In this document: one piece after another, positions 8,766-23,859 of the stretch
Layout of the letters: each line of letters begins with the position of its first letter
Numbering within the stretch: the first letter of the stretch is position 1
DNA from: a virus
DNA length: 26,089 bases
Reading direction: 5' to 3' (one strand)
Virus record (IMG/VR): IMGVR_UViG_3300017917_003616
Span: 1 to 26,089 of that record
Position numbers and translations under genes: made by a program
Notes under the pieces: generated by a model
The model's database searches: none
Seen by the model: only the letters and a program-made list of their open reading frames with translations
Told to the model about the DNA's origin: nothing

Positions 8766-9179
8766 ATGCCTATACCTCAAACGATACGTGTAAATCCGTT
8801 AGATTTACGGAAGAATATTGCTATTGGGGTATCTTTACCTTTTAAAGGACCTTTTAAAAGTACTTTTACTACTAAGGATCAAATTAAGTCTAATTTAATT
8901 AATCTTTTACTTACCAATAAAGGTGAAAGAGTAATGAATCCTACTTTTGGATGTGATATAAAAAGACAATTATTTCAAAATATTACTACCGAATTACAAC
9001 AAAAAATTATAGATATTATTGTAGAATCTGTTAGAATATTCATTCCTGAAATACAACTTTTAAATGTAGTAGTATCTCCTGATATTGATTCTAATTCAAT
9101 AAGCATAACAATAGACTACAAAATAGTAATATCAAATACACCAGGTCAAGTAACAATTCAATTTGAAACAATTAGATAA
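8766..9179 (+). CDS. 25: gp25-like baseplate wedge protein (137 aa)
   Basis: The GPW/gp25 family pattern is clear: IKSNLINLLLTNKGERVMNP at 40-59 followed by TFGCDIKRQLF, then a helix and beta strands ending in VTIQFETIR. In contractile tails gp25 is part of the wedge core that contacts gp6 and the sheath and starts sheath polymerisation. Its length is normal for the family. The gp6 gene follows after two bases, the gene pair expected in T4-type phages. Confidence 0.92.
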   Translation: MPIPQTIRVNPLDLRKNIAIGVSLPFKGPFKSTFTTKDQIKSNLINLLLTNKGERVMNPTFGCDIKRQLFQNITTELQQKIIDIIVESVRIFIPEIQLLNVVVSPDIDSNSISITIDYKIVISNTPGQVTIQFETIR

Positions 9180-9181
9180 AA

Positions 9182-11008
9182 ATGATGACAAACGAAGATA
9201 AAAATATATCATATTTAAATAAAGATTTTGGCTCTTTTAAAGCAGAATTACAACAGTATGCCAAAACTTATTTCCCAACAACATACAATGACTTTACAGA
9301 AGCAACACCAGGAAATATGTTTATTGAAATGGCATCTTACGTTGGTGATGTTATGTCATTTTATCTAGATACCCAAGTACAAGAAAATTTCTTATTATAC
9401 GCTAAAGAAAAAGAAAATTTATACGCCCAAGCATATGTAATGGGTTATCGCCCTAAAGCATCGTATGCTTCAAATACTATAGTTGATATAAGCCAACTAG
9501 TTCCTTCTATTACTAATGCAGGTATAACAACACCAGACTATACTACTTATGGAGTTATAATACCAGAAAATACTATCCTTACTTCAACTACAACGGGTAC
9601 TAAATTTATAACAACTCAACAAGTAGATTTTACTGATACGGGTAGTACTGAAATTTCCTTTATAGATTCTAATTATTTTTTATTAAAAAAATCAGTTCCC
9701 GCTATATCAGCCGAAATAGTAGAAACTACAATCAATGTAGGTTCAAATCAAAAATTTGCTACTACTACTATTACTGATACTAATATATTACAAATATTAA
9801 ATGTTACTAGTAGTGATGGAAATCAATGGTATGAGGTTCCTTATTTAGCCCAATCATCTATTTTCAAATCACTAGCTAATCCTTCATACAATACAGATCA
9901 AGTTCCTTATTTATTACAGTTACAAAATACTCCTAGACGTTTTGTTTCTAGAATTTTATCTGATAATACATTACAGATGGAGTTTGGAGCTGGTTTATCT
10001 TCAAATAAAACTGATACTCAAATTATCCCAACCCCAGATAACATTCAAGCTGGTGTTGTACCCGGTATTTCATTATTAACTAATAATTATAATGAAGCTG
10101 GTACTTTCTTTACCCAAGAGTATGGTTTAGTACCTAATGGTGATTTAACAGTAAAATATTTAGTTGGAGGTGGTATTGAATCAAATGTACCTGCTAATGA
10201 TTTAACTGTTATTGATACAACAGGAGTAACATTTCCTGGTGGTGGTGGGGCTTTAAATGCTACAGTATTACAAAGTATAGTATCATCAAATCCTAATCCA
10301 TCTTCAGGAGGAAGAAATGGTGATACAGTAGATGAAATTCGCCAAAACGCATTATATGCTTATTCAACTCAATTAAGAGCTGTAACTAAAGATGATTATA
10401 TAGTAAGAGCAATGTCTATGCCTTCTGATTATGGTACTGTGGCTAAAGCTTATATTTCTCAAGATTTAAATCAAAATCCACAACAAACAGTAGCTACACT
10501 ACAACAAAATAATCCATTAGCTTTAGATTTATATGTTTTATCTTATAATAATGATAAACAAATAGTTACAGGATCTTTAACTCTAAAAAACAATTTAGTA
10601 ACCTATCTTAATCAATATAGAATGGTTACTGATGCTATTAATATTAAAGATGCTTATTATATTAATATAGGATTAAATTTTGATATAATTACATTAAGTG
10701 GATATTCTAATAAAGATGTAATAACTAACTGTATAACTGTACTAAAAGACCATTTCAATATAGATAAATGGCAAATTAATCAACCAATTACACTTTCAGA
10801 TATCACTTCTAAACTTTTACAAGTTAAAGGTGTACAATCAGTAGTTAAATTAGAAATAATAAATAAACAAGGAGGCGATTATTCTCAATATGGATATGAT
10901 ATTGCTGGTGCAACTAAAAATGGAAATATTTATCCTTCATTAGACCCAGCTATATTTGAAGTTAGATTCCCTGATATTGATATACAAGGTAGAGTAGTAG
11001 TAAGTTAA
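9182..11008 (+). CDS. 6: gp6-like baseplate wedge protein (608 aa)
   Basis: The N-terminus is diagnostic of gp6/baseplate J-like proteins: SYLNKDFGSFKAELQQYAKT, then DFTEATPGNMFIEMASYVGDVM, then AYVMGYRPK. The protein continues with beta-rich domains and a C-terminal part with KDDYIVRAMSMPSDYG and a final strand region. gp6 forms the hexagonal inner ring of the baseplate with gp25 and gp53 and is essential for tail assembly. Its length is close to that of T4 gp6 (660 aa). Two ATGs lie side by side (9182 and 9185); either may be used. Confidence 0.9.
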   Translation: MMTNEDKNISYLNKDFGSFKAELQQYAKTYFPTTYNDFTEATPGNMFIEMASYVGDVMSFYLDTQVQENFLLYAKEKENLYAQAYVMGYRPKASYASNTIVDISQLVPSITNAGITTPDYTTYGVIIPENTILTSTTTGTKFITTQQVDFTDTGSTEISFIDSNYFLLKKSVPAISAEIVETTINVGSNQKFATTTITDTNILQILNVTSSDGNQWYEVPYLAQSSIFKSLANPSYNTDQVPYLLQLQNTPRRFVSRILSDNTLQMEFGAGLSSNKTDTQIIPTPDNIQAGVVPGISLLTNNYNEAGTFFTQEYGLVPNGDLTVKYLVGGGIESNVPANDLTVIDTTGVTFPGGGGALNATVLQSIVSSNPNPSSGGRNGDTVDEIRQNALYAYSTQLRAVTKDDYIVRAMSMPSDYGTVAKAYISQDLNQNPQQTVATLQQNNPLALDLYVLSYNNDKQIVTGSLTLKNNLVTYLNQYRMVTDAINIKDAYYINIGLNFDIITLSGYSNKDVITNCITVLKDHFNIDKWQINQPITLSDITSKLLQVKGVQSVVKLEIINKQGGDYSQYGYDIAGATKNGNIYPSLDPAIFEVRFPDIDIQGRVVVS

Positions 11009-11027: not shown

Positions 11028-11627
11028 ATGAATTTAGACAAATTAAAAGGACACATTCCTGAAGCTGTTATAACCCAAATCCCAGGTGTTATGGAAAAAT
11101 TCCAAATTAACACTCCTCTACGTTTAGCACACTTTTTAGCTCAATGTGGTCATGAATCTGGTGGTTTTCGTTTAACAAAAGAAAACTTAAACTATAGTGC
11201 TAAAGGTTTAGCAAATACATTTAAAAAATATTTTCCAACCGAAGCAGCCGCTGCATCGTACGCTAGACAACCTGAAAAAATTGCCAATAAAGTTTATGGT
11301 AATAGAATGGGTAATGGCCCTGAATCATCAGGTGATGGTGCTAAATTTTGTGGTCGTGGTTACATTCAATTAACTGGAAAAGATAATTATACTGCATTTG
11401 GTAAATCAATTAATGAAGATTTAACAAAAGACCCAACAGTAGTAGCAGGTAAGTATGCCCTATTATCAGCAGCATGGTTCTTTAGCAAAAACGGTTTACA
11501 TAAAATGGCCGATGAAGGCGCTACTGATGCAGTTGTAACTAAGATTACTAGGCGTGTTAATGGTGGTACTATTGGTTTAGCTGATAGAATTAAGCATTTT
11601 AAAGAATATCACGCATTATTAGCATAA
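11028..11627 (+). CDS. GH19 chitinase-class lysozyme, tail-associated or endolysin (199 aa)
   Basis: Family 19 glycoside hydrolase features are present throughout: HFLAQCGHESGGF at 35-47 with proposed catalytic Glu43, a second acidic position Glu52 in TKENLNYSAKG, FCGRGYIQLTGKDNY at 107-121, and ITRRVNGG at 173-180. It has no signal peptide and no cell-wall-binding domain, so it is a single catalytic module. It would cleave peptidoglycan glycan. Lying between gp6 and further tail genes, it may be the baseplate lysozyme (the enzymatic role of T4 gp5) rather than, or as well as, the endolysin. No holin is adjacent. Confidence 0.88.
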   Translation: MNLDKLKGHIPEAVITQIPGVMEKFQINTPLRLAHFLAQCGHESGGFRLTKENLNYSAKGLANTFKKYFPTEAAAASYARQPEKIANKVYGNRMGNGPESSGDGAKFCGRGYIQLTGKDNYTAFGKSINEDLTKDPTVVAGKYALLSAAWFFSKNGLHKMADEGATDAVVTKITRRVNGGTIGLADRIKHFKEYHALLA

Positions 11628-12768: not shown

Positions 12769-13100
12769 TGTCTCAAATACCAGTACAGAAAACTGTATTT
12801 AATAAAGATAGTTTTGGTAGAGTAATTAACACTCAATTTAACCAATTACTAAATCAAACTGTAGAAGAAACTAATACTTTTACAGTAGATGATTTCTTTC
12901 AACTATATGAAGATTTATTTTATCAAATTCCTAAAGAAGGAGATACTAACTCTCATAGATATATTTTACAACGTGAGGCTGATTACTTAGGTGTTAGTAT
13001 TAGTCAAGATGATATACAAGCATTACTAAATGAAATTACATCATTAAGACAACAAGTACTAGAATCCCAACAAACAATAAACGATTTGACTAAAAGATAA
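12768..13100 (+). CDS. small tail protein with C-terminal coiled coil (110 aa)
   Basis: Starts MSQIPVQKTVFNKDSFGRVI. Residues 40-75 are helical and aromatic (DDFFQLYEDLFYQIP), and residues 83-110 form a coiled coil (LLNEITSLRQQVLESQQTIN). It overlaps both neighbours by one base at TAATG junctions, a tight stoichiometric arrangement. It is perhaps an assembly adaptor for the 1476-residue protein; no family recognised. Confidence 0.65.
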   Translation: MSQIPVQKTVFNKDSFGRVINTQFNQLLNQTVEETNTFTVDDFFQLYEDLFYQIPKEGDTNSHRYILQREADYLGVSISQDDIQALLNEITSLRQQVLESQQTINDLTKR

Positions 13101-16100
13101 TGGCAGATAATATTAAAATAGTAGGTGAAATATTAAACGAACAGCAAGTATCTCGCTATGATGATGCTGACATTAATTTACTTGAATCTCAAACACTCCG
13201 AGAAGATTTTGGTTTAACTGATGATTATATTGAGTATTTTGTTTCTGATGCTGTTGGTAATATTTTAAATACAAACTATACTTATAGAGATTTTAAATCA
13301 CCTAATACATCATATGTTAATCCAAAAAACAATGGATTACCTATTATTGAAATTGACCCTGTTAAGGATTTACAAAATTTAGGATACAGATCAGGAGAAT
13401 TTAAAGTTCAATATAACTTATTTACTAACAAAATCTCAAATCCTAATGCCGAATTATTCTTAAAAGAAATATCGGCAGATAGAACTGAATTGAGAGTAGG
13501 ATCTACTATTTTAACTAATGAACAAATTGAAAGTGGATCTTTAGAACTTATAGATGAATATACTAATTCCCCTTATTTTGTAGATTATCTTTTAAATTTT
13601 AATAATAATATTCAAGCAGTAGTTGTAAATGTTGCTTTAAATAAAGTTGAAAGTGGATATGAAATTTTATTTAAATTATACCAACCACTACCAGACGAAA
13701 TTCAAGAAAAAAATACATTATGGGTAGTTAAAGAAAAAGTAACTCCATATATTTTTGATATTAATCTGGACACATTAATAACCCTAGCTCCTGGTCCTAA
13801 ACTAAGAGGGCCTAACTTTAATATTGATATTCCTAATCAAAATAACGTTGCTACATCATATCAAAACTACACCAGTTTAGTTAACAGTGTACAAAACGTA
13901 TCTACATCTTCATATCAACAATTATTAAGTTTAATTACTTCTCAAAGTATTGATATAAATGTAGATTATACTGATTTTACAAACTTTACCTTCTTTAGCT
14001 CAGCTAAACAAAGAGTTATTAATTTTTATGGTAAAGTAAAACAAATAGAAGATTATAAAAATAATATTTCTGTTTATACTCCTCTTACTTCTAGTAACCC
14101 TAATTTAATTAATGATTTAAACAATACTACTGCCAGTATTAATAATATTATATCTGGATTTGATGGATATGAATACTATTTATATTTTGAATCTAGTTCA
14201 TATGCGTGGCCTAAAACAACATCTACAACTCCATATATCTTAGCAACTACAGCTTCTGCTCAAACGTGGTATAGTGCTCTTACTAGTAGTGCTGGGTTTT
14301 ATGATGACAATAATCAAAATAATTTAGTATTTACCCTTCCTTCATTTATTAAAGATGATGAAGATAATGATCCATATATCACATTTCTTAATATGATTGG
14401 TCATTATTTTGATAATATTTGGATTTTCTTACAAGCAGTAACTGATATTAATCTAGCAAATAACAACCTAGAAAAAGGCGTTTCTAAGGATTTAGTATAC
14501 TATGTGTTACAATCATTGGGAGTAAAATTATACAACCAATACGGCGATTCAGACAATACTAATTTCTTAGTTGGTGCTAGTGGTAGTTCTAATTGGGATA
14601 ATAACTTTACCTCAACTGGTTCTTATTTAAATTCAATACCACGTAAAGATTTACTTGCTGAATCTTATAAACGTATTTACCATAACTTACCACTATTATT
14701 AAAAACAAAAGGTACTACCTACGGTTTACAAACATTAGTATCTACTTTTGGTATTACTGGCAGTACATTACAGATTAAAGAATATGGTGGGGATTTAAAA
14801 AACAATACATTAGACGAATTTAATAATGATAAAATAAGAATTGTACCTAATAGTATAACAGGTAGTGTTTTATCACCACATGTTAGTTTACAATTACAAC
14901 CTACATCATCAACTTCATTTAGAACAAATGATTTACATTATGTAGATATTTCATTCTCACCACAAGATAAAATTGATATATTCACCTCAGCTTCTGTAGT
15001 AGCAACTAATCCTTCTTGGAATGTAGATAATTTTATTGGTGATCCTAGATACCAATACAACAGTTCATACCCAACATTAGAAATTGAACGTACTAAATAC
15101 TTATCACCTCTAACAGCATCTATAGTACCATATACTGGCTCTTCAACAAATGGATTAACTAGTGGATCAATTGGTGCTACTGATTATAATAGCTTTATTC
15201 GCCTAATTCAGTTTTTTGATAATTCATTATTTAAAATGCTGAAAGATTATGTTCCTGCAAGAACAAGCTTATCAACAGGTATTACTATTAGCTCTCCTAT
15301 TTTAGAGAGAAATAAATGGGTTTTCGCAAATCCATCTTCTACCTCTGAAATTGAGGTAGAGGATGGTACTATCGAGGGTCCTTCTATTCAAACTGAATAT
15401 ACTGATCTTTATGAAGGAATTAATTATGATAACAAAGTAGCTTATTATGATGGTAATTTAACAGGTAGTGGAATTAATGTTCATAATTATTTTGCTACAG
15501 CAAATATTAATCCTTATTTATTCAACACAGCTTCATGGAATGCTCAAAATCCAATATCAGAAAGTATTGATCTAAATAAGTTTGCTCATTCTGATTATAA
15601 CGTAATGTTAAATAACGTTTCTAAAAGTTTAACATCACGCAATAGACAAGATATTGAATATATTTTTGGTACAACACAAAGCATTATATCACCAGTTGAG
15701 TTACAAGATTCATATGAGTCTTTAAAAACACATCAACTTTCACGTTATGAAGGCGTAAAATTATCTAGTTTATATTATAACACATATACTAGTGCTTCAT
15801 CTGATTATGTAGGTGATACTTCATTTGGTAAAACAGCTGTAATAGATAAAAATGTAGTTAAGTTAGGTTTATTTTCTGAAATAACAAATAATATATATTT
15901 ACCTAATCGTAATAATGCTATATTAAAATATTTAGTAGATATTGATGGTAATTTAACTGAACTTAATCTTCGTAATACACATTGGGAGGAAATTCAAAAT
16001 ACATTTAAAGCTGGAGATACAGGCAGTATATCACAATTTAATAGTCAACTATACTCTAACCAAAAACCTACTGATGGTGAAAAGATGATATATAATAGTG

Positions 16101-17530
16101 GATATACTTATTCTCCACTTCTATATTTCCCATCTTGCAGTGCTGGTAATAGTAAAATTTCATTCCAAAACCAAGTAAACCAATCAGCTTATTTGGCTAC
16201 TGCTCAAAATTTAAGCTCATCTTACTTTATAAGTGGGAGTACAACATTAGGATATCCTGTAACAATGAGTGCAGGTATAGGAGGTACAAATGCTATTGTT
16301 AATATATTTAATAACCCAATCAATACCCCTTCAACACCAACACAATATTACTTCCCAGGAGCTTTAAACCACTCTCCAACATATTCCGCTTTAGAAACAG
16401 GACAATATAGAATAAATGCTTCTATGGATATGGATATTACTATGTCTTCTGGAAGTCATGCTACTTGGAGTTTAGAAATGTATAGTGGATCTACTTTAAT
16501 AGAAAGTTCACTACAACAAGTATATTTTGGAGACATAACAGGATCCTGCACCAGTTATCTTTTATCTACTTCTAACCTGAGTGATCCTATTGTTTATACA
16601 GTTAATTATACTTCATGTGCTGATGGAACTCCTGCATCTGTACGTTTAACTAGTGGCCTTGTGGGTGGTGTAAGTGTATGTTCTAGAACAAAACCTTATG
16701 TATTTGATAGTAATACTGGTAATCCTGCATTTCCTGGAGCAATTAATGAATCTACTTTCACACCTTGTGATATCTACACTATCCCTGGTAGTACCACCAA
16801 AACCCTAAACTTTAATATTGACAGAGGAAATAATAATTCTAATTATGTTTCTCTTGCAAGTGGTAGTAGAATATCATTTCAATTAAGATTATTAGGTATA
16901 AGTAGCGATAACTACACAGCATCTCTTAATAATGGAGATTTATCTGTTGGATCATTAGCACTAAGCACAGGATACTCTGAAATAAGTTGCCCATTTGTAA
17001 CTAGTGGATCTACATCTAATTCACTTACATTTACACCAGAAGTATCTAGTTTTTATAATAGAAATTATTTATTCGTACCAAACCCATTAACAGGTTCTCA
17101 AAGTAGTTTATATAGTACTTACAAAGATGTAGACTATACATTTAATCCTAAAGAAAATGATATGGTTATTTTATACTTATCTGATAATAGTATATTAGAA
17201 TATGTTATTAATAAAGTAAGTGTAGATTCAACAACAGGACAATTATCTTTATTTTTTAATAAAGAATTATCAACAACAGCAGCAAGTAATTTAGTAAACG
17301 GGACTTATAAAAGATTTTTATTATTATCAAGACAAAAAGATGAAACCAGTGTTATATTGAACTTTATTAAACGTGAAGGTAAATCATCAAATGGATTCTT
17401 AATACCTGAAAATATTAGTCAAACCGTATTGAATAATATTGACGTAATAACTAAAGAAGTAAAGCAAAAAATACTTGGAGACCAGCCAATAATTAATGAC
17501 CTTAACGGTGGAACTTCTTTCGGTCCTTAA
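13100..17530 (+). CDS. very large baseplate/tail structural protein (1476 aa)
   Basis: This is the largest gene in the window. Residues about 1-240 are mixed alpha/beta. Residues about 420-480 contain LPSFIKDDEDNDPYITFLNM and GHYFDNIWIFLQAVTDI, a recognisable phage tail phrase, followed by PRKDLLAESYKRIYHNLPLL and LLKTKGTTYGLQTLVSTFGI (about 514-555). The last third is Ser/Thr/Gly/Asn-rich beta sequence. A segment of about 280 residues near 1013-1290 carries all the Cys I noticed (SCSAG, SCTSY, TSCADGTP, VCSRTKP, TPCDIY) and looks like an inserted beta domain; after it KENDMVILYLSDNSILEYV resumes the helical/beta base. Position after gp25/gp6 suggests a gp7-like wedge periphery protein or fibre base, but no T4 assignment is secure. 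Confidence 0.7.
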   Translation: MADNIKIVGEILNEQQVSRYDDADINLLESQTLREDFGLTDDYIEYFVSDAVGNILNTNYTYRDFKSPNTSYVNPKNNGLPIIEIDPVKDLQNLGYRSGEFKVQYNLFTNKISNPNAELFLKEISADRTELRVGSTILTNEQIESGSLELIDEYTNSPYFVDYLLNFNNNIQAVVVNVALNKVESGYEILFKLYQPLPDEIQEKNTLWVVKEKVTPYIFDINLDTLITLAPGPKLRGPNFNIDIPNQNNVATSYQNYTSLVNSVQNVSTSSYQQLLSLITSQSIDINVDYTDFTNFTFFSSAKQRVINFYGKVKQIEDYKNNISVYTPLTSSNPNLINDLNNTTASINNIISGFDGYEYYLYFESSSYAWPKTTSTTPYILATTASAQTWYSALTSSAGFYDDNNQNNLVFTLPSFIKDDEDNDPYITFLNMIGHYFDNIWIFLQAVTDINLANNNLEKGVSKDLVYYVLQSLGVKLYNQYGDSDNTNFLVGASGSSNWDNNFTSTGSYLNSIPRKDLLAESYKRIYHNLPLLLKTKGTTYGLQTLVSTFGITGSTLQIKEYGGDLKNNTLDEFNNDKIRIVPNSITGSVLSPHVSLQLQPTSSTSFRTNDLHYVDISFSPQDKIDIFTSASVVATNPSWNVDNFIGDPRYQYNSSYPTLEIERTKYLSPLTASIVPYTGSSTNGLTSGSIGATDYNSFIRLIQFFDNSLFKMLKDYVPARTSLSTGITISSPILERNKWVFANPSSTSEIEVEDGTIEGPSIQTEYTDLYEGINYDNKVAYYDGNLTGSGINVHNYFATANINPYLFNTASWNAQNPISESIDLNKFAHSDYNVMLNNVSKSLTSRNRQDIEYIFGTTQSIISPVELQDSYESLKTHQLSRYEGVKLSSLYYNTYTSASSDYVGDTSFGKTAVIDKNVVKLGLFSEITNNIYLPNRNNAILKYLVDIDGNLTELNLRNTHWEEIQNTFKAGDTGSISQFNSQLYSNQKPTDGEKMIYNSGYTYSPLLYFPSCSAGNSKISFQNQVNQSAYLATAQNLSSSYFISGSTTLGYPVTMSAGIGGTNAIVNIFNNPINTPSTPTQYYFPGALNHSPTYSALETGQYRINASMDMDITMSSGSHATWSLEMYSGSTLIESSLQQVYFGDITGSCTSYLLSTSNLSDPIVYTVNYTSCADGTPASVRLTSGLVGGVSVCSRTKPYVFDSNTGNPAFPGAINESTFTPCDIYTIPGSTTKTLNFNIDRGNNNSNYVSLASGSRISFQLRLLGISSDNYTASLNNGDLSVGSLALSTGYSEISCPFVTSGSTSNSLTFTPEVSSFYNRNYLFVPNPLTGSQSSLYSTYKDVDYTFNPKENDMVILYLSDNSILEYVINKVSVDSTTGQLSLFFNKELSTTAASNLVNGTYKRFLLLSRQKDETSVILNFIKREGKSSNGFLIPENISQTVLNNIDVITKEVKQKILGDQPIINDLNGGTSFGP

Positions 17531-17583: not shown

Positions 17584-18246
17584 ATGGCAATTTTAAATCC
17601 TACAACAGTAACTGTAGATGCAATATTAACCACGAAGGGCCGCGAATTGTTGGCTCGTAATGATGGTTCATTTCAAATTACTCAATTCGCATTAGCTGAT
17701 GATGAAATTGATTATACTCTATATAACCCAAATCATCCATCAGGATCTGCGTTCTATGGTGAAGCAATTGAAAACACTCCTGTGTTAGAAGCTTTCCCTA
17801 ACGAATCACAAATCATGCGTTACAAATTAGTAACTTTACCTCGTGGTACATCTAAATTACCAGTTATTAACCTAGGTTATAACAGTATTATATTACGCCA
17901 GGGTGCTTCATTAACAATTACTCCACAAACCTTAAATTATTTAGGTTCTACAAGTACATTTGAAGCAAACGGATACACAGCTACAATTGCTGATTCTCGT
18001 TTAGTATCTTCATTTACAGGTACAGGTATCACCTCAACAACACCACCTGCAGGATTAAACACAACTACAGGAACTGTATTATCAGTAACTCAAATTGGTA
18101 CTTCATTTACTATAACAGGTACAACAATTAATACATTATTCGGTTCTACTTTAACACAATTATCAACTACAATCACTGTGATTGGTAGAGATAGTGGTGC
18201 AAGAGTTACTATTCCTCTTAATATTCAAAAAGTATCATCAATCTAA
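17584..18246 (+). CDS. tail/fibre structural protein (220 aa)
   Basis: The N-terminal domain reads ILTTKGRELLARNDGSFQIT followed by QFALADDEIDYTLYNP, a phrase typical of structural proteins of Bacteroidetes phages in my recollection. After LPVINLGYNSIILRQG the C-terminal 120 residues are Thr/Ser/Gly-rich beta strands with almost no charge, as in fibre shafts or Ig-like domains. It lies 8 bases before the next fibre-type gene. Probably a fibre base or connector; partner and receptor unknown. Confidence 0.65.
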   Translation: MAILNPTTVTVDAILTTKGRELLARNDGSFQITQFALADDEIDYTLYNPNHPSGSAFYGEAIENTPVLEAFPNESQIMRYKLVTLPRGTSKLPVINLGYNSIILRQGASLTITPQTLNYLGSTSTFEANGYTATIADSRLVSSFTGTGITSTTPPAGLNTTTGTVLSVTQIGTSFTITGTTINTLFGSTLTQLSTTITVIGRDSGARVTIPLNIQKVSSI

Positions 18247-18254
18247 TTTAACAT

Positions 18255-19256
18255 ATGTCATTCTCAAGATATAACACCGAAGATTCAGTAATCAGCTCAG
18301 AAACCGTAGTACGTGGTTTATGGAGTGGAGATGCTAATAGTTTATCTACTTTCTTTACTCAAAGTGGATATACTGAATATTATTTAGATGTATATAATGG
18401 AGACCCCTCATTATCTGGTTCTTCAGTACAGTTTTCAATCCAATATGGTAATTTAAATGGATCTGGATCTAATTTAATAAATCCAAGTGTACCGAACGGA
18501 GGTTATACTCCATCACGTGTGGTATATGGTGAATATAGAAATTTAGTTTTTGGAACTGAAACAACAAATTTTAGCTTTGATAATGGTTTAACAACAGCAA
18601 ATGATATATTTGTAATTAACGTTGCTCGTTCTCGTTATAAAGAATCTTTATTACCAGGTTCATTTAATTTAACTTTAGGAAGTGGTAGTAATACTATTAA
18701 ATTAACTGATGATAGTGGAACTACAAGTTTAACTCGCTTTATTGGTGAAAATAAAGTATTCTACATTATTAGTGGAAGTAATGGCAATGCTTATACCTCA
18801 GCAGCATCCTCTTCTTATTATGGAATGATGTTCCCAGATTTAGATATTATTGTATTAAATGCAACTGCTTCTTCTGTAGTAGATTTAAGAAGTTACTTTG
18901 CACCTTTAACAACAGCCACTTCTTCAGTACAAAACAACCACTTAAAATTATACAATTCAGTTGTAAGTGGATTAGTATCTGGTAGCTTCCAATTAAGATC
19001 ATCTGAAACAGTTTCTTCACGTTATTTCTTTACAAGAGTAAAAAATAGTGAATTTAACTATACTTCAAATCCATCTATTATAGATACAAATGGTAACTTA
19101 TTATACACAACTTTAATTAATAATCCTCAAACATACGTTACAACAGTAGGTATGTATAATGATAATAACGAGTTGTTAGCAGTAGCTAAATTAAGTAAAC
19201 CATTAACAAAAGATTTTACTAAAGAAGCTCTAATTAGAATCAAACTAGACTATTAA
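18255..19256 (+). CDS. tail/fibre structural protein with AVAKL module (333 aa)
   Basis: Starts MSFSRYNTEDSVISSETVVR. Beta-rich Ser/Gly/Asn sequence runs throughout. The C-terminal ~78 residues form a module with NPS, then TYVTTVGMYNDNNELLAVAK, then LSKPL; this module recurs as a stand-alone protein at 23090-23401. It is probably an assembly or attachment domain at the fibre or baseplate. The next gene starts four bases after its stop. Confidence 0.65.
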   Translation: MSFSRYNTEDSVISSETVVRGLWSGDANSLSTFFTQSGYTEYYLDVYNGDPSLSGSSVQFSIQYGNLNGSGSNLINPSVPNGGYTPSRVVYGEYRNLVFGTETTNFSFDNGLTTANDIFVINVARSRYKESLLPGSFNLTLGSGSNTIKLTDDSGTTSLTRFIGENKVFYIISGSNGNAYTSAASSSYYGMMFPDLDIIVLNATASSVVDLRSYFAPLTTATSSVQNNHLKLYNSVVSGLVSGSFQLRSSETVSSRYFFTRVKNSEFNYTSNPSIIDTNGNLLYTTLINNPQTYVTTVGMYNDNNELLAVAKLSKPLTKDFTKEALIRIKLDY

Positions 19257-19259
19257 TGC

Positions 19260-20639
19260 ATGTCTTCATTCAAAAAGTTAAGCAAATCGGACGTTACAGT
19301 AGTACCAAATCATGCTAATAAGCAATGGTTATTAGATTATTGTCCTTATCCTACGTCATCTGAATACTTAACTATTTATAAAGGCACGAATGTTACTGGT
19401 AGTTTTTCTTTAGATGAAGATGTTACTGAGGGTCAATATGAACGGTTAGTTTATTCTCAAATAAATCAGTTATTCTATCAAGACTATACTGCTTCGTTAG
19501 ATACTAGTTCGTTAATGTTTACACTTAACAACTATGAATCTGCTTCTCAACAACGTCCTACTTCATCTTATTTCATATACAATGATAATAAGAATTTAAT
19601 TACATCCTTCCCTACAGGTGCTATGGAGGGAATTCGTGTATTAGCTATTAATCAAGACATTTATGGTAATAAAGTATTACCAAATCATTTTATCTTATCT
19701 TCATCTGCATATTATGTAACTGATGATGGTTTTGGTAATTTATATGATAATGGGTCAACTCATATCGGAAATTTATTTTATGCTCATGGTTTAGGCGTAA
19801 TAACAAACCCAGACTATCAGCTAATGTTTCCTTTACCACCAATAGCTAAAAATGATATTGGATATTTTTCAACAACAGATTCACCAAAAATAATTTCAGC
19901 ATCATCAAATGATTATGCTAGAAGTGGAACTTTAAATACAGGTTCGTTAATATTGTCTGGTAGTACATCAGGAACAAATTATTCTTGGGCTACAGGAAGT
20001 AATGGTACTATTGTTTTAACAACAACAGTTGCAGGTACTTATACCATTTATTATACAATTGGAGCTGATATAGCTGGTTCTTGTGCTGTTCAATTAAGAA
20101 GTAATAAGGCTAAAGTTACAGCTATTGTTACAGGAATAACACCACCAACAACAACTACTAGTACGACAACATCAACAACAACTGTAGCTCCTACTACAAC
20201 AACAAGTACGACTACAACAACAACAACAGCTGAACCTACTACTACCACTACTACAACAACAAGTACGACTACAACAACAACAACAGCTGAACCTACTACT
20301 ACTACTACAAGTACGACTACAACAACAACAACAGCTGAACCTACTACTACAACAACGACTAGTACAACTACATCTACCACTACATCTCCGGATACTTTTT
20401 ACTTAGCTGAGAGATATCAATGTGCATCTCCTGGTCCTGGCTGTACTGGCCCTGTTAGTGGAAGTAATGTTACAGTAGTACTTTCTAATGGAGCATCATC
20501 CACATTAAATTATTTCCATAACCCAGTAACTCCTGATGGTTATGTTTATAAATTAATAAGCACAACAACAGGTCCTGCTAGTATAACAGTAAAAACAGCA
20601 GGATATGGATCTTGTAATGATGCTTGTTTAAATCCCTAG
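19260..20639 (+). CDS. mucin-like fibre/adhesin with poly-threonine stalk (459 aa)
   Basis: Domains in order: residues 1-195, a beta-rich attachment part (QWLLDYCPYPTSSEYLTIYK near the start); 196-294, an Ig-like region (IAKNDIGYFSTTDSPKI, then AGTYTIYYTIGADIAGSC); 295-378, a stalk of almost pure Thr with single Ser and AEP/VAP spacers; 379-459, a small Cys-containing tip (YQCASPGPGCTGP and GSCNDACLNP, four Cys). The stalk resembles mucin-type linkers that are O-glycosylated in other organisms. Three glycosyltransferase genes follow directly. I infer a distal host-binding fibre whose stalk may be glycosylated. There is no signal peptide, as expected for a virion protein. The trinucleotide repeat DNA makes stalk length prone to change. 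Confidence 0.72.
   Translation: MSSFKKLSKSDVTVVPNHANKQWLLDYCPYPTSSEYLTIYKGTNVTGSFSLDEDVTEGQYERLVYSQINQLFYQDYTASLDTSSLMFTLNNYESASQQRPTSSYFIYNDNKNLITSFPTGAMEGIRVLAINQDIYGNKVLPNHFILSSSAYYVTDDGFGNLYDNGSTHIGNLFYAHGLGVITNPDYQLMFPLPPIAKNDIGYFSTTDSPKIISASSNDYARSGTLNTGSLILSGSTSGTNYSWATGSNGTIVLTTTVAGTYTIYYTIGADIAGSCAVQLRSNKAKVTAIVTGITPPTTTTSTTTSTTTVAPTTTTSTTTTTTTAEPTTTTTTTTSTTTTTTTAEPTTTTTSTTTTTTTAEPTTTTTTSTTTSTTTSPDTFYLAERYQCASPGPGCTGPVSGSNVTVVLSNGASSTLNYFHNPVTPDGYVYKLISTTTGPASITVKTAGYGSCNDACLNP
20148..20387 (+). repeat. ACN trinucleotide repeat tract with higher-order 48-57 bp units
   Basis: This tract encodes the Thr-rich stalk. A core starting AAGTACGACTACAACAACAA and running into GCTGAACCTACTACT occurs at 20204, 20261 and 20309 (spacing 57 and 48 bases), with a degenerate copy beginning near 20159. 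Unequal unit lengths in multiples of three point to in-frame slippage or recombination. Confidence 0.9.
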
Positions 20640-20666
20640 GTAACATAAAACAATTATATTATAGTT

Positions 20667-21626
20667 ATGAAAAATTTACGTTATGTTTGTGTTCAACCTC
20701 GCATACTATATTATGCTTGGCAGGTTGAAGTAATGATTAATAATTTTATTAAGCAAGGAATTAATCCAAACAATATTGACATTCTTGTTGCCTGGAATCC
20801 AAACGACGACACTTCAAAACCAGAAAACATAGAAGCATGGAATAAACTTGCTTCGCATTATAGTTCGGTTCGTTTTTTCTTTTATCAAGACACTAGACAA
20901 CAACCTATATACTACATTTCATCTGTACGCCCCAACGTATTAAAACAGCACTTTAAAGCGCATCCTGAATTGGAATCTGAGGCGATTTTCTATCATGATT
21001 GTGATATTGTATTTACTCGTAAGCCTGATTTTAATGCGTTTTTAAATGATAAAATTTGGTATTTAAGTAATACAAATTCATACATTAATTATGATTATAT
21101 CATATCTAAAGGATTAGATGTATATGACAAAATGTGTAAAATAGTTAACATAGATTCTATCATACCTAAGCTAATGAACTCAAATTCAGGTGGTGCTCAA
21201 TATCTAATGAAAAATGTTGATTGGGTATTTTGGGAATTTGTTGAACGGGATAGTGAAAAATTATTTAAAGAAATAACTGAATTAAATAATATTAAAAAAG
21301 CAAATGATCCTAACCACCACGAACTCCAGATTTGGTGTGCTGATATGTGGGCTGTTCTTTGGAATGGATGGATGTTAGGAAATGAAACTAAAGTAGTACC
21401 TGAAATGGATTTTAGTTGGGCTACTGATCCATCTAACAGATGGAATGAAACTCTAATCTATCACAATGCAGGTGCAACTTGTGGTTGTGGTGGTACTTTC
21501 TATAAAGCACTATATATGGATCTATTACCATATAGTTTAAATGCAGAAAAATTTGATAAAGAAAAAAATTGTTATAACTACGTTTTAGAAATAATAGAAA
21601 CAGCCCAAAAATCATGTCTAATTTAA
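20667..21626 (+). CDS. putative GT-A glycosyltransferase with DxD motif (319 aa)
   Basis: EAIFYHDCDIVFTRKPDF holds the DxD metal and nucleotide-sugar motif (Asp111-Cys-Asp113) after a beta strand, as in GT-A folds. Later elements are NSGGAQYL at 173-180, CADMWAVLWNGWMLG at 224-238, VVPEMDFSWATD at 243-254 and IYHNAG at 264-269, the order seen in donor- and acceptor-site loops. The overall layout faintly recalls peptidyl hydroxyproline/serine glycosyltransferases, but this is a weak impression. No membrane segment or signal peptide is present, so it would act in the cytoplasm. It starts 27 bases after the mucin-like fibre gene and overlaps the next glycosyltransferase gene by 13 bases. Confidence 0.75.
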   Translation: MKNLRYVCVQPRILYYAWQVEVMINNFIKQGINPNNIDILVAWNPNDDTSKPENIEAWNKLASHYSSVRFFFYQDTRQQPIYYISSVRPNVLKQHFKAHPELESEAIFYHDCDIVFTRKPDFNAFLNDKIWYLSNTNSYINYDYIISKGLDVYDKMCKIVNIDSIIPKLMNSNSGGAQYLMKNVDWVFWEFVERDSEKLFKEITELNNIKKANDPNHHELQIWCADMWAVLWNGWMLGNETKVVPEMDFSWATDPSNRWNETLIYHNAGATCGCGGTFYKALYMDLLPYSLNAEKFDKEKNCYNYVLEIIETAQKSCLI

Positions 21627-22303
21627 AAGTAGCAGGAATGATGAGATTAGCTGAGGTTGATCAAACAAAAGTAGGTAAAAGATTAATGAAATTATCTATT
21701 CAATCATTAGCAGATAAAGTTTCTCAAATATATTTCCTTCAAATAGGTCTTATTGATAATGATATTATAGAATTTATTAATAATTTGCCTATTAAAATTA
21801 AAATTACTAACCAAACTACTAATTACAATAGTGGGTGGGCATTTAAAAATAATGAAAGCTTAGACGATTTATACCAAACAATAGATAAAAATTTTGACTG
21901 GATACTATACCCAGATGCAGATGATTTACTACCAGAAAATATATTAGAATTATGTGAAAAAGCAGATTTAGAAAATAAAAACACAATACGTTTACATTTT
22001 ATCGAATGCTTTGGTTCAGAAAATAATATTATTGAAATAAAACCAGGATATCCTATAGGTCCTCATTTTAAAGCAATTAAACCATTTGAAGGATTAACAT
22101 TTATTGGTAGTGATGGTTTTAACGAAGCAAAAGGTCCTTTAAATAGATATGAAACTCCATATTGTATAAGACATTTAAGATATGCAAATATAGATAATAT
22201 CAAACAAAGACAAAAAATGAATTATTTTCAATCCTATTTTTTAGAAGAACATAAAACAAAAGAATACAAACCTAATCAAACAATAAATTATTACTATGCA
22301 TAA
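21614..22303 (+). CDS. putative small GT-A glycosyltransferase (229 aa)
   Basis: FDWILYPDADDLLPENIL (about 94-110) contains the Asp-x-Asp-Asp motif (101-104) at the end of a strand, as in family 2-like GT-A enzymes. Upstream, KVSQIYFLQIG and the NQTTNYNSGWAFKNN region fit a nucleotide-binding first half. At 229 residues it is compact and lacks membrane segments. It overlaps the preceding glycosyltransferase by 13 bases and the following one by 8, so the three enzymes are made together. Donor and acceptor are unknown; the preceding fibre is the suggested acceptor only from context. Confidence 0.7.
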   Translation: MSNLKVAGMMRLAEVDQTKVGKRLMKLSIQSLADKVSQIYFLQIGLIDNDIIEFINNLPIKIKITNQTTNYNSGWAFKNNESLDDLYQTIDKNFDWILYPDADDLLPENILELCEKADLENKNTIRLHFIECFGSENNIIEIKPGYPIGPHFKAIKPFEGLTFIGSDGFNEAKGPLNRYETPYCIRHLRYANIDNIKQRQKMNYFQSYFLEEHKTKEYKPNQTINYYYA

Positions 22304-23087
22304 GAAAGTAAGTTTTGTTTGTACAACATATAGACGTTTTACTTGTGTAGAAAGAGTAGTAGCACAATATTATGCACAAACTTATCCAAACAAAGAATTG
22401 ATCATATTCAATACAGATGAAGAATATCCGTATGAGTTAGGATTTGGAGATGATAGTATTATAATTGTAAATAACAATATAAATTATCAAACAGCATGTG
22501 AATATGAGAATAGAGGACAAATATGTAGAGATGCGGTTACTCACGCTACGGGTGATTATTTTATGTTAGCAGATGATGATGACATTTATTTACCTTGGCA
22601 TCTCCAACAAGCAATAGATGGTATAGAATTAAATAAAAAAGATGCATGGAAACCAGAAATGAGTTTCTTTGCTAGCCAACAAGAGGTAAAAATAGTAATG
22701 AATACCCTAGAGGCTTCTGTTATTGTTAAAATGGATAGAATACGTGAAATTGGATTTAGAAGTGATTTAACAGGATATGAAGGATTAAGTTGGTACACTA
22801 GATTAAGAGATGAAGGACAATTGGATGAACATAATAAAAATTATGTACCTTCATATTGTTTTAATTGGAGTGATCCTTCAGAAATAGCAGGACATAAACA
22901 AAGTGGTGATATTAATAACCCTAATAACTTTGAAAATCACAAACAAGCTAGTGGGGATTATGCTAAAAAACCATTATCTAGAATTGAAATAGGTACAATC
23001 TATGATAAGTACTATGATTATTTACGTACCAATAAAGATCAATTTAATCAAGAATACTATAAAAAGTATGCACTTCAATATTTATAA
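22296..23087 (+). CDS. family 2-type glycosyltransferase (263 aa)
   Basis: Classic GT2 layout: KVSFVCTTYRRF at 4-15, a strand-helix nucleotide-binding region, ENRGQICRDAVTHATGDYFM at 71-90, then LADDDDIYLPWHL with the acidic metal site at 93-96. The second half has GYEGLSWYTRLRDEGQLDEH, compatible with an acceptor region and catalytic base. There is no transmembrane helix, unlike lipid-linked polysaccharide synthases, which favours a soluble protein- or DNA-modifying enzyme. It is the last of the three overlapping glycosyltransferase genes, and the fibre-module gene follows after two bases. Confidence 0.82.
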   Translation: MHKKVSFVCTTYRRFTCVERVVAQYYAQTYPNKELIIFNTDEEYPYELGFGDDSIIIVNNNINYQTACEYENRGQICRDAVTHATGDYFMLADDDDIYLPWHLQQAIDGIELNKKDAWKPEMSFFASQQEVKIVMNTLEASVIVKMDRIREIGFRSDLTGYEGLSWYTRLRDEGQLDEHNKNYVPSYCFNWSDPSEIAGHKQSGDINNPNNFENHKQASGDYAKKPLSRIEIGTIYDKYYDYLRTNKDQFNQEYYKKYALQYL

Positions 23088-23089
23088 CC

Positions 23090-23401
23090 ATGCCATCAGT
23101 AGTACACACAGGACCCTTCACAGTATCATTTAAAAATGAACATACCATCTACGAAAACGAAGTTCGTTGCTTGGTAAAGGAAAGTGATTACAATTTATCA
23201 TACAACCCAACATTAGTGTCAGGTAGCTATGAAAGTGGATCCTTAAAGAATTTTGCTACTAGCTCAGACTTTTATACCTATGCTACAACATTAGGATTAT
23301 ACGATGATGATAATCAATTATTAGCTGTTGCTAAATTAGGTAAACCAATTATGATGTCACCTGACACAGACATGACGTTTGTAGTCAAGTACGACGCATA
23401 A
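23090..23401 (+). CDS. stand-alone copy of a fibre-protein module (103 aa)
   Basis: Residues about 33-95 match the C-terminal module of the 333-residue fibre protein at 18255: SYNPT, then FYTYATTLGLYDDDNQLLAV, then AKLGKPI, against TYVTTVGMYNDNNELLAVAK and LSKPL. The N-terminus MPSVVHTGPFTVSFKNEHTI is extra. It is therefore a small structural protein paralogous to a fibre domain. It could cap or decorate the fibre, or be a duplicated remnant kept with the glycosyltransferases. It follows the third glycosyltransferase by two bases. Confidence 0.65.
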   Translation: MPSVVHTGPFTVSFKNEHTIYENEVRCLVKESDYNLSYNPTLVSGSYESGSLKNFATSSDFYTYATTLGLYDDDNQLLAVAKLGKPIMMSPDTDMTFVVKYDA

Positions 23402-23415
23402 AATAAATTTTAGTT

Positions 23416-23859
23416 ATGTTACAAACATCTAATCCTCTTTATGTTGAGGATTTAATTAATGATCCTAATTTTAATATTGATGACTATTGTGGTTATGTCT
23501 ATATGACTTGCCACGACTTAACAGGCCGTAGGTATATTGGTAAAAAAGTATTTCACCACACCACCACTAAAAAATTAGGCAAGAAAGAACTAACTGAAAT
23601 TCCAGTTACTAGGGGTAAACGCCCAACTAAAAAAACAGTAGTTAAGGAAAGCGATTGGAAAACATATTACGGTTCCAACACTGAAGTAAAGTCATTACCT
23701 AAAGACGAAATGGTTCGTATCGTATTACGTTTGTGTAAAACAAAAAAAGAATTAACATACTACGAAACAAAATTCCTATTTGATTATAACGTGTTGGAAA
23801 ACGACACTTATATGAATGATAATATACTAGGTAAATTCTATCGAAAAGACTTGTTATAG
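23416..23859 (+). CDS. GIY-YIG-like phage endonuclease (147 aa)
   Basis: CGYVYMTCHDLTGRRYIGKK at 25-44 fits the GIY-YIG core (Tyr-Val-Tyr, then Arg-Tyr-Ile-Gly-Lys-Lys). After a basic insertion (KLGKKELTEIPVTRGKRPTK) come SDWKTYYGSN at 79-88, a helix with ELTYYETKFLF where Glu117 would bind metal, and NDNILGKFY at the end. Small T4-like phage endonucleases share this order, including a DWKxYYGSS-like phrase. It may be a free-standing homing endonuclease or have a role in DNA processing. It lies between the glycosyltransferase cassette and the replication genes, the kind of place where homing nucleases move segments. Confidence 0.72.
   Translation: MLQTSNPLYVEDLINDPNFNIDDYCGYVYMTCHDLTGRRYIGKKVFHHTTTKKLGKKELTEIPVTRGKRPTKKTVVKESDWKTYYGSNTEVKSLPKDEMVRIVLRLCKTKKELTYYETKFLFDYNVLENDTYMNDNILGKFYRKDLL

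Follow-up and report, generated by a model that had tools for sequence, protein, structure and literature searches.

A threonine-rich fibre stalk and its adjoining glycosyltransferase genes as a probable virion-glycosylation cassette in a tailed phage

We analyzed the IMG/VR virus record IMGVR_UViG_3300017917_003616, a whole virus entry of 26,089 bases that represents a genome fragment (hereafter, the window), in which a gene encoding a fibre protein with a threonine-rich stalk is followed by three genes, one of them an orphan, with features of glycosyltransferases (GT1, GT2, and GT3). Our analysis indicates that positions 19830-23107 (approximate extent, + strand) are, in all likelihood, an exchangeable virion-glycosylation cassette inserted in a tail structural gene. 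The evidence comprises the structure of the cassette itself, the co-occurrence of stalk and GT1 among related phages, the GT-A fold of the GT1 model, and the same pairing of GT1 with capsid and tail-tube proteins in phages of Firmicutes.

Stalk, enzymes, and the interrupted ancestral gene

The fibre protein (459 residues; 19260-20639, + strand) comprises a conserved N-terminal domain (residues 1-190), an added domain (191-290), the Ser/Thr stalk (295-378; 20142-20393, + strand), and a variable C-terminal tip; among fibre homologs, residues 1-290 are common to all and the tips diverge. In the stalk, which is the proposed O-glycan acceptor, Thr accounts for 60 and Ser for 8 of the 84 residues (71% Thr, 81% Ser plus Thr), with three AEP spacers and one VAP spacer in between. 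An earlier reading of the letters alone (the first-pass annotation) was thus correct about the spacers and overstated the composition as nearly pure Thr. The stalk DNA is repetitive, with a unit of about 48-57 bp, and because a run of seven Thr codons was found in only 3/50 random viral contigs, a poly-Thr stalk is not expected by chance. The first-pass annotation also invoked the general protein O-glycosylation of Bacteroidetes, a pathway in which the protein is exported and the acceptor motif contains Asp-Ser/Thr. Asp is absent from fibre residues 295-377, hence the stalk lacks this motif, and the host pathway is unnecessary for the proposal made here.

GT1 (319 residues; 20667-21626, + strand), the proposed initiating Thr glycosyltransferase, is a full-length match to PHROG 4417 (1.8e-57; residues 5-311 against positions 2-290 of a 293-position profile), the "prophage pi2 protein 34" family that carries the label "unknown function." GT1 has no match in Pfam and no sequence match in the Protein Data Bank (PDB), and a 50-sequence profile searched against PDB chains returned none at E≤1, such that this search gives no sequence homology with CAZy families GT8 or GT24. 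A DCD motif is found at residues 111-113, and D111, D113, and H266 are invariant in 50 homologs. The structural model, built with 50 sequences, has a predicted local distance difference test (pLDDT) score of 96, and its best PDB folds are GT-A enzymes, including the catalytic domains of UGGT as well as WbbM, collagen galactosyltransferase, glycogenin, xyloside xylosyltransferase, and Skp1 galactosyltransferase. UGGT (GT24), glycogenin (GT8), and collagen galactosyltransferase (GT25) are close in fold to the model (TM-score about 0.3-0.5) with 8-15% identity and no profile-level sequence match. From this model we confidently predict GT1 to be a GT-A glycosyltransferase near enzymes that glucosylate or galactosylate proteins, and the fold prediction proposed at the outset as a check on the three enzymes agrees, for GT1, with a protein acceptor. 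A bacterial source of GT1 was considered and rejected: about 85,000 genomes yielded three matches with the patterns used, all on Bacteroidetes metagenome-assembled genome contigs, and two of the three carry poly-Thr genes and are thus phage-like. As a separate observation, radical SAM/SPASM proteins adjoin GT1 in four loci (L037, L038, L107, and L137; L numbers denote surveyed loci) and are apparently fused to it in long open reading frames (ORFs) of two large phages (L100 and L141); they may introduce a second peptide modification on the same acceptor.

GT2 (229 residues; 21614-22303, + strand) and GT3 (263 residues; 22296-23087, + strand) are both proposed extenders. GT3 harbors a DDD motif at 93-95 and passes the glycosyltransferase family 2 profile PF00535 (29.4 bits against a gathering cut-off of 23.3, 9e-07), with similarity to SpsA (2e-04) and weak similarity to exopolysaccharide glycosyltransferases. 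GT2 has a DAD motif at 101-103 (DADD), no relatives in IMG/VR, phage records, or the PDB, and no Pfam or PHROG family; the DxD context makes it a putative glycosyltransferase. The description of three GT-A-type enzymes therefore stands for the DxD motifs of all three, the fold of GT1, and the family of GT3, with GT2 recognized by its motif only. None of the three proteins has a stretch of membrane-helix grade (maximum 19-residue Kyte-Doolittle value of 1.07), as first described, and the four ORFs, the 27-base gap after the fibre gene, and the 13- and 8-base overlaps of the glycosyltransferase genes proved exact to the base.

The genes that follow GT1 differ from phage to phage and include GT6, PF04488, a weak GT61 match, PF00535 relatives, an NAD-dependent epimerase, methyltransferases, and radical SAM/SPASM proteins, which suggests a conserved initiator with exchangeable extenders. 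GT3 homologs in other cassettes are 68-84% identical; in L065, L078, and L079, they share 68-76% identity and GT1 only about 55%, indicating that extenders are exchanged separately.

The cassette lies within what was once a single gene. In 15 stalk-less relatives (L330, L331, L338, L341, L346, L357, L359, L363, L367, L369, L371, L374, L375, L379, and L391), fibre residues 1 to about 190 are fused directly to a domain that in the window is a separate 103-residue ORF (23090-23401, + strand), which represents the C-terminal domain that has separated from the ancestral gene for the fibre base; the fused L330 gene is 67% and 77% identical to the two window parts. The isolated outgroup, gp105 of Flavobacterium phage immuto (L429), has the fused layout and neither stalk nor glycosyltransferase. 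Taken together, these genes indicate that stalk, tip, and glycosyltransferase genes interrupt a once-continuous gene, and by sequence comparison stalk and enzymes are gained or lost jointly. We infer insertion rather than later fusion from the tree described below and the outgroup isolate. Some relatives, such as L335, have the split gene without stalk or glycosyltransferase, and so the insertion is modular. The model of the ancestral fibre base is weak (pLDDT 65), and its fold matches are uninformative.

Pairing of GT1 with Thr-rich virion proteins

The first-pass annotation would have been contradicted by glycosyltransferase genes equally common in relatives that lack the Thr stalk, and this is not the case. 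We surveyed the lineage with the structural gene at 17584-18246 as bait, which is blind to stalk and glycosyltransferases, and obtained 80 relatives, of which 50 loci had enough flank to be scored; a stalk was defined as a Ser/Thr run of ≥8 downstream of the bait, and GT1 status was taken from the BLAST label. A stalk is present in 5/5 loci with GT1 and in 0/45 without (Fisher p=4.7e-7). Adding loci selected on GT1 gives 31 with both, three with GT1 and no stalk, 55 with neither, and none with a stalk and no GT1 (31/34 versus 0/55). Since the loci are related, a tree of 89 loci was built from two proteins. GT1 changed at least six times on supported branches, and in six independent pairs the stalk follows GT1 in 5.9 on average and does the opposite in none (p=0.03).

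Gene order and base rates in broader samples point the same way. When gene positions are counted from 107 GT1 genes, no two of them identical, a poly-Thr gene occupies position -1 in 71%, -2 in 21%, a site farther upstream in at most 7%, and +1 or +2 in none. PHROG 4417 is found in 9/50 records selected for poly-Thr versus 0/50 random viral records (p=0.003), and PF00535 in 19/50 versus 2/50; with records restrained to 10-100 kb and equal total length, PF00535 is found in 14/43 versus 1/44 (p=1.5e-4). ORFs directly 3' of poly-Thr ORFs match several glycosyltransferase families, and 5' ones almost none.

The pairing extends to isolated phages. By tblastn, 74 phage records carry a GT1 homolog. 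Nearly all are from Firmicutes phages, every homolog is below 60% identity, and remote homologs at 27-38% identity occur in isolated phages of Lactococcus, Enterococcus, Lactobacillus, and Staphylococcus. Inspection of 20 such regions revealed clear Thr-rich tails near GT1 in all but the two weakest, Enterococcus phage 9183, in which a tail protein ends TTTDPVTTTSTTRQ, and LP65, with TETQTQ repeats. These tails lie on the major tail and/or capsid proteins in phiFL1A, 1_EfsPF36, 1706, CHPC971, R3.3, R9.1, nattely, bIL285, and CHPC836; in phiFL1A, the C terminus of the capsid protein reads ...TTTTTKPTTTTTTTQG and that of the major tail protein ...TTTTTTTQASSK, and in 1706 the protease-capsid and major tail proteins end ...TTTTTTTTTHHD. 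Further clear Thr-rich tails near GT1 occur in iLp84, Semele, LpeD, SA2, RQ1, PT94, SAC12B, and Chryseobacterium phage MA9V-3. Javan47, Javan311, Javan570, Bassarid, and phiJL-1 each encode a relative of the phiFL1A tail protein that ends without a Thr tail, and PHROG 4417 is likewise absent from these phages. By sequence, it is well supported that GT1 nearly always accompanies Thr-rich virion proteins.

A feature of its own is seen in three Staphylococcus/"Arcanobacterium" phages (L086:5117-5930, L412:2164-2926, and L416:2229-2931), in which the major tail protein ends ...ACT ACT CCC TAA and a long ORF rich in poly-Thr follows in the +1 frame past this end. That all three share the identical site suggests a programmed +1 frameshift, whose product would be a minor tail protein bearing a mucin-like extension.

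In the lineage of the window, a PF11397 enzyme replaces GT1 at the locus where the stalk is an alternating Pro-Thr repeat (loci L342, L350, L351, L352, L355, L358, L378, L383, L387, and L389 for stalk and PF11397). PF11397 lies behind the stalk in 9/19 loci with Pro-Thr repeats versus 2/31 without (p=0.001); in L351, one of the two that depart from the pattern, the stalk is of the Pro-Ser-x-Thr type. These counts suggest that repeat type and initiating enzyme are matched. The founding member of PF11397 is the Skp1 hydroxyproline N-acetylglucosamine (GlcNAc)-transferase, and to our knowledge such enzymes are rare in prokaryotes. The family shares GT1's place in the same locus but is distinct from it by sequence and is not found in the window. 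A Skp1-like hydroxyproline pathway was also considered, and no prolyl hydroxylase was found beside the Pro-Thr stalks. Tentatively, and with somewhat less than even confidence, these loci may belong to one modular mucin-like system across Bacteroidota and Firmicutes phages, in which Thr/Ser homopolymers go with PHROG 4417, Pro-Thr and Pro-Ser-x-Thr repeats go with PF11397, and extenders (GT6, GT25, GT61, PF04488, an epimerase, and methyltransferases) are swapped like O-antigens.

Proposed mechanism and alternatives

Phages that infect two bacterial phyla have GT1 beside Thr-tailed virus proteins, which makes it very probable that GT1 decorates virus particles with sugars. How the enzymes act, on which sugar and in what order, and what the phage gains by it, we infer as follows. 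The cassette would bring an acceptor, the Thr/Ser stalk that links the variable tip to an N-terminal domain anchored in the tail, together with cytoplasmic enzymes encoded directly behind it. GT1 would add the first sugar to stalk threonines from a host nucleotide sugar before or during assembly, and GT3, probably also GT2, would lengthen or vary the glycan. The phage might gain a stiff, extended stalk, a particle masked from proteases or surface-binding molecules, or altered binding. The earlier suggestion that the phage glycosylates its own stalk is in this way strengthened by the stalk-GT1 co-occurrence, the tree contrasts, the Firmicutes pairing, and the predicted fold. GT1 matched no lipopolysaccharide or DNA-base glycosyltransferase family in the Pfam and PHROG scans or the fold search.

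Several points weigh against this proposal. The Firmicutes samples are small, the tree test stands on two proteins, GT2 is an orphan, and the fibre is assigned to the virion from where its gene lies and from the synteny of this part of the genome with a region annotated as tail fibre/spike. Three related GT1-positive loci (L034, L037, and L038) encode a short fibre without a stalk, possibly through recent stalk loss or use of another acceptor. A near-identical clade of GT1 genes lies beside lysis genes with no adjacent poly-Thr gene, although records of this clade longer than 50 kb carry poly-Thr elsewhere in 6/6 cases (L046, L047, L057, L058, L064, and L069). Most poly-Thr phages in the broad sample are without PHROG 4417, and TTAP/TNTP stalks of the same lineage have no glycosyltransferase within about 6 kb, and thus Thr stalks do not always depend on GT1.

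Of the alternatives, the one that fares best, though we regard it as unlikely, is that the enzymes alter the host cell surface (O-antigen, capsule, or teichoic acid) against superinfection, with their place beside the fibre reflecting joint exchange with receptor changes. This is a common role of phage glycosyltransferases (PMC12619734), GT3 is a generic family 2 enzyme with its weak resemblance to exopolysaccharide enzymes, and fibre tips vary along with cassettes. On the other hand, the enzymes lack membrane helices, no flippase is seen in the cassette, and GT1 follows Thr-rich tails even on major tail and capsid proteins, which are not receptor-binding fibres, and is absent where relatives of those proteins have no tail. 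It is improbable, too, that the stalk is an unmodified flexible linker produced by repeat slippage, with the glycosyltransferase genes as passengers of the same mobile block. The stalk is indeed a DNA repeat, and the TTAP/TNTP stalks dispense with nearby enzymes, but the pairing persists across phyla at about 30% identity, on differing carrier proteins and with no common block, and joint gain or loss recurs on the tree. The classical DNA glucosyltransferases AGT and BGT have a GT-B fold. That the enzymes glycosylate modified bases of phage DNA, although DNA glucosylation is usual for phage glycosyltransferases (PMC12619734), is very hard to credit given that GT1 is predicted to be GT-A and shows neither a family match to DNA alpha- or beta-glucosyltransferases nor their fold, that no DNA-base-modifying family is found among the scanned window genes, and that the Firmicutes homologs lie mostly within head and tail modules.

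Virion glycosylation as such is known from the mycobacteriophages Che8, Corndog, and Myrna (Freeman et al. 2023, as described in PMC12363180, PMC12619734, and PMC13313380), whose glycosyltransferases, according to PMC12619734, decorate capsid and tail-tube subunits at their C termini. The candidate acceptors of the Firmicutes relatives also lie at the C termini of capsid or tail-tube subunits, whereas the proposed acceptor in the window is an internal stalk of a fibre protein and is accompanied by several enzymes; here the acceptors are Thr/Ser homopolymer stalks or tails. None of the 74 records that carry a GT1 homolog is from a mycobacteriophage, and the enzymes are thus not recognizably homologous in that search. 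Our literature searches found no paper on phage poly-Thr stalks, PHROG 4417, or their pairing, and as far as these searches show, the pairing of GT1 with a poly-Thr acceptor is new.

Genomic context and implications

Pfam and PHROG scans of the window genes reveal a contractile-tail block with baseplate wedge genes (8766-11008), an endolysin (11028-11627), a 1476-residue protein (13100-17530), the structural protein used as bait (17584-18246), and a paralogous structural protein upstream of the fibre (18255-19256, + strand) that shares its C-terminal domain with the ORF at 23090-23401. Downstream lies a SegE-type GIY-YIG gene (23416-23859), followed by primase and exonuclease genes. Pfam identifies the product of 23416-23859 as a SegE endonuclease, and PHROG 447 and the immuto record name it "NAD synthetase," a label that looks wrong. 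The closest isolates are the Flavobacterium immuto phages (160 kb), with synteny over the tail block and two genes at 67% and 57% identity; the host is probably Flavobacterium.

This work gives PHROG 4417 a testable function in studied isolates, including Lactococcus phages 1706 and bIL285, Enterococcus phages phiFL, nattely, and 9183, and Staphylococcus phage SA2. If the proposal is true, the tail tubes and capsids of these isolates would be glycoproteins, and virion glycosylation would reach beyond mycobacteriophages to phages of two further host phyla. It would also reveal an enzyme and an acceptor that are dedicated to each other and travel together in one block, and would provide soluble enzymes for the bacterial production of mucin-like polymers.

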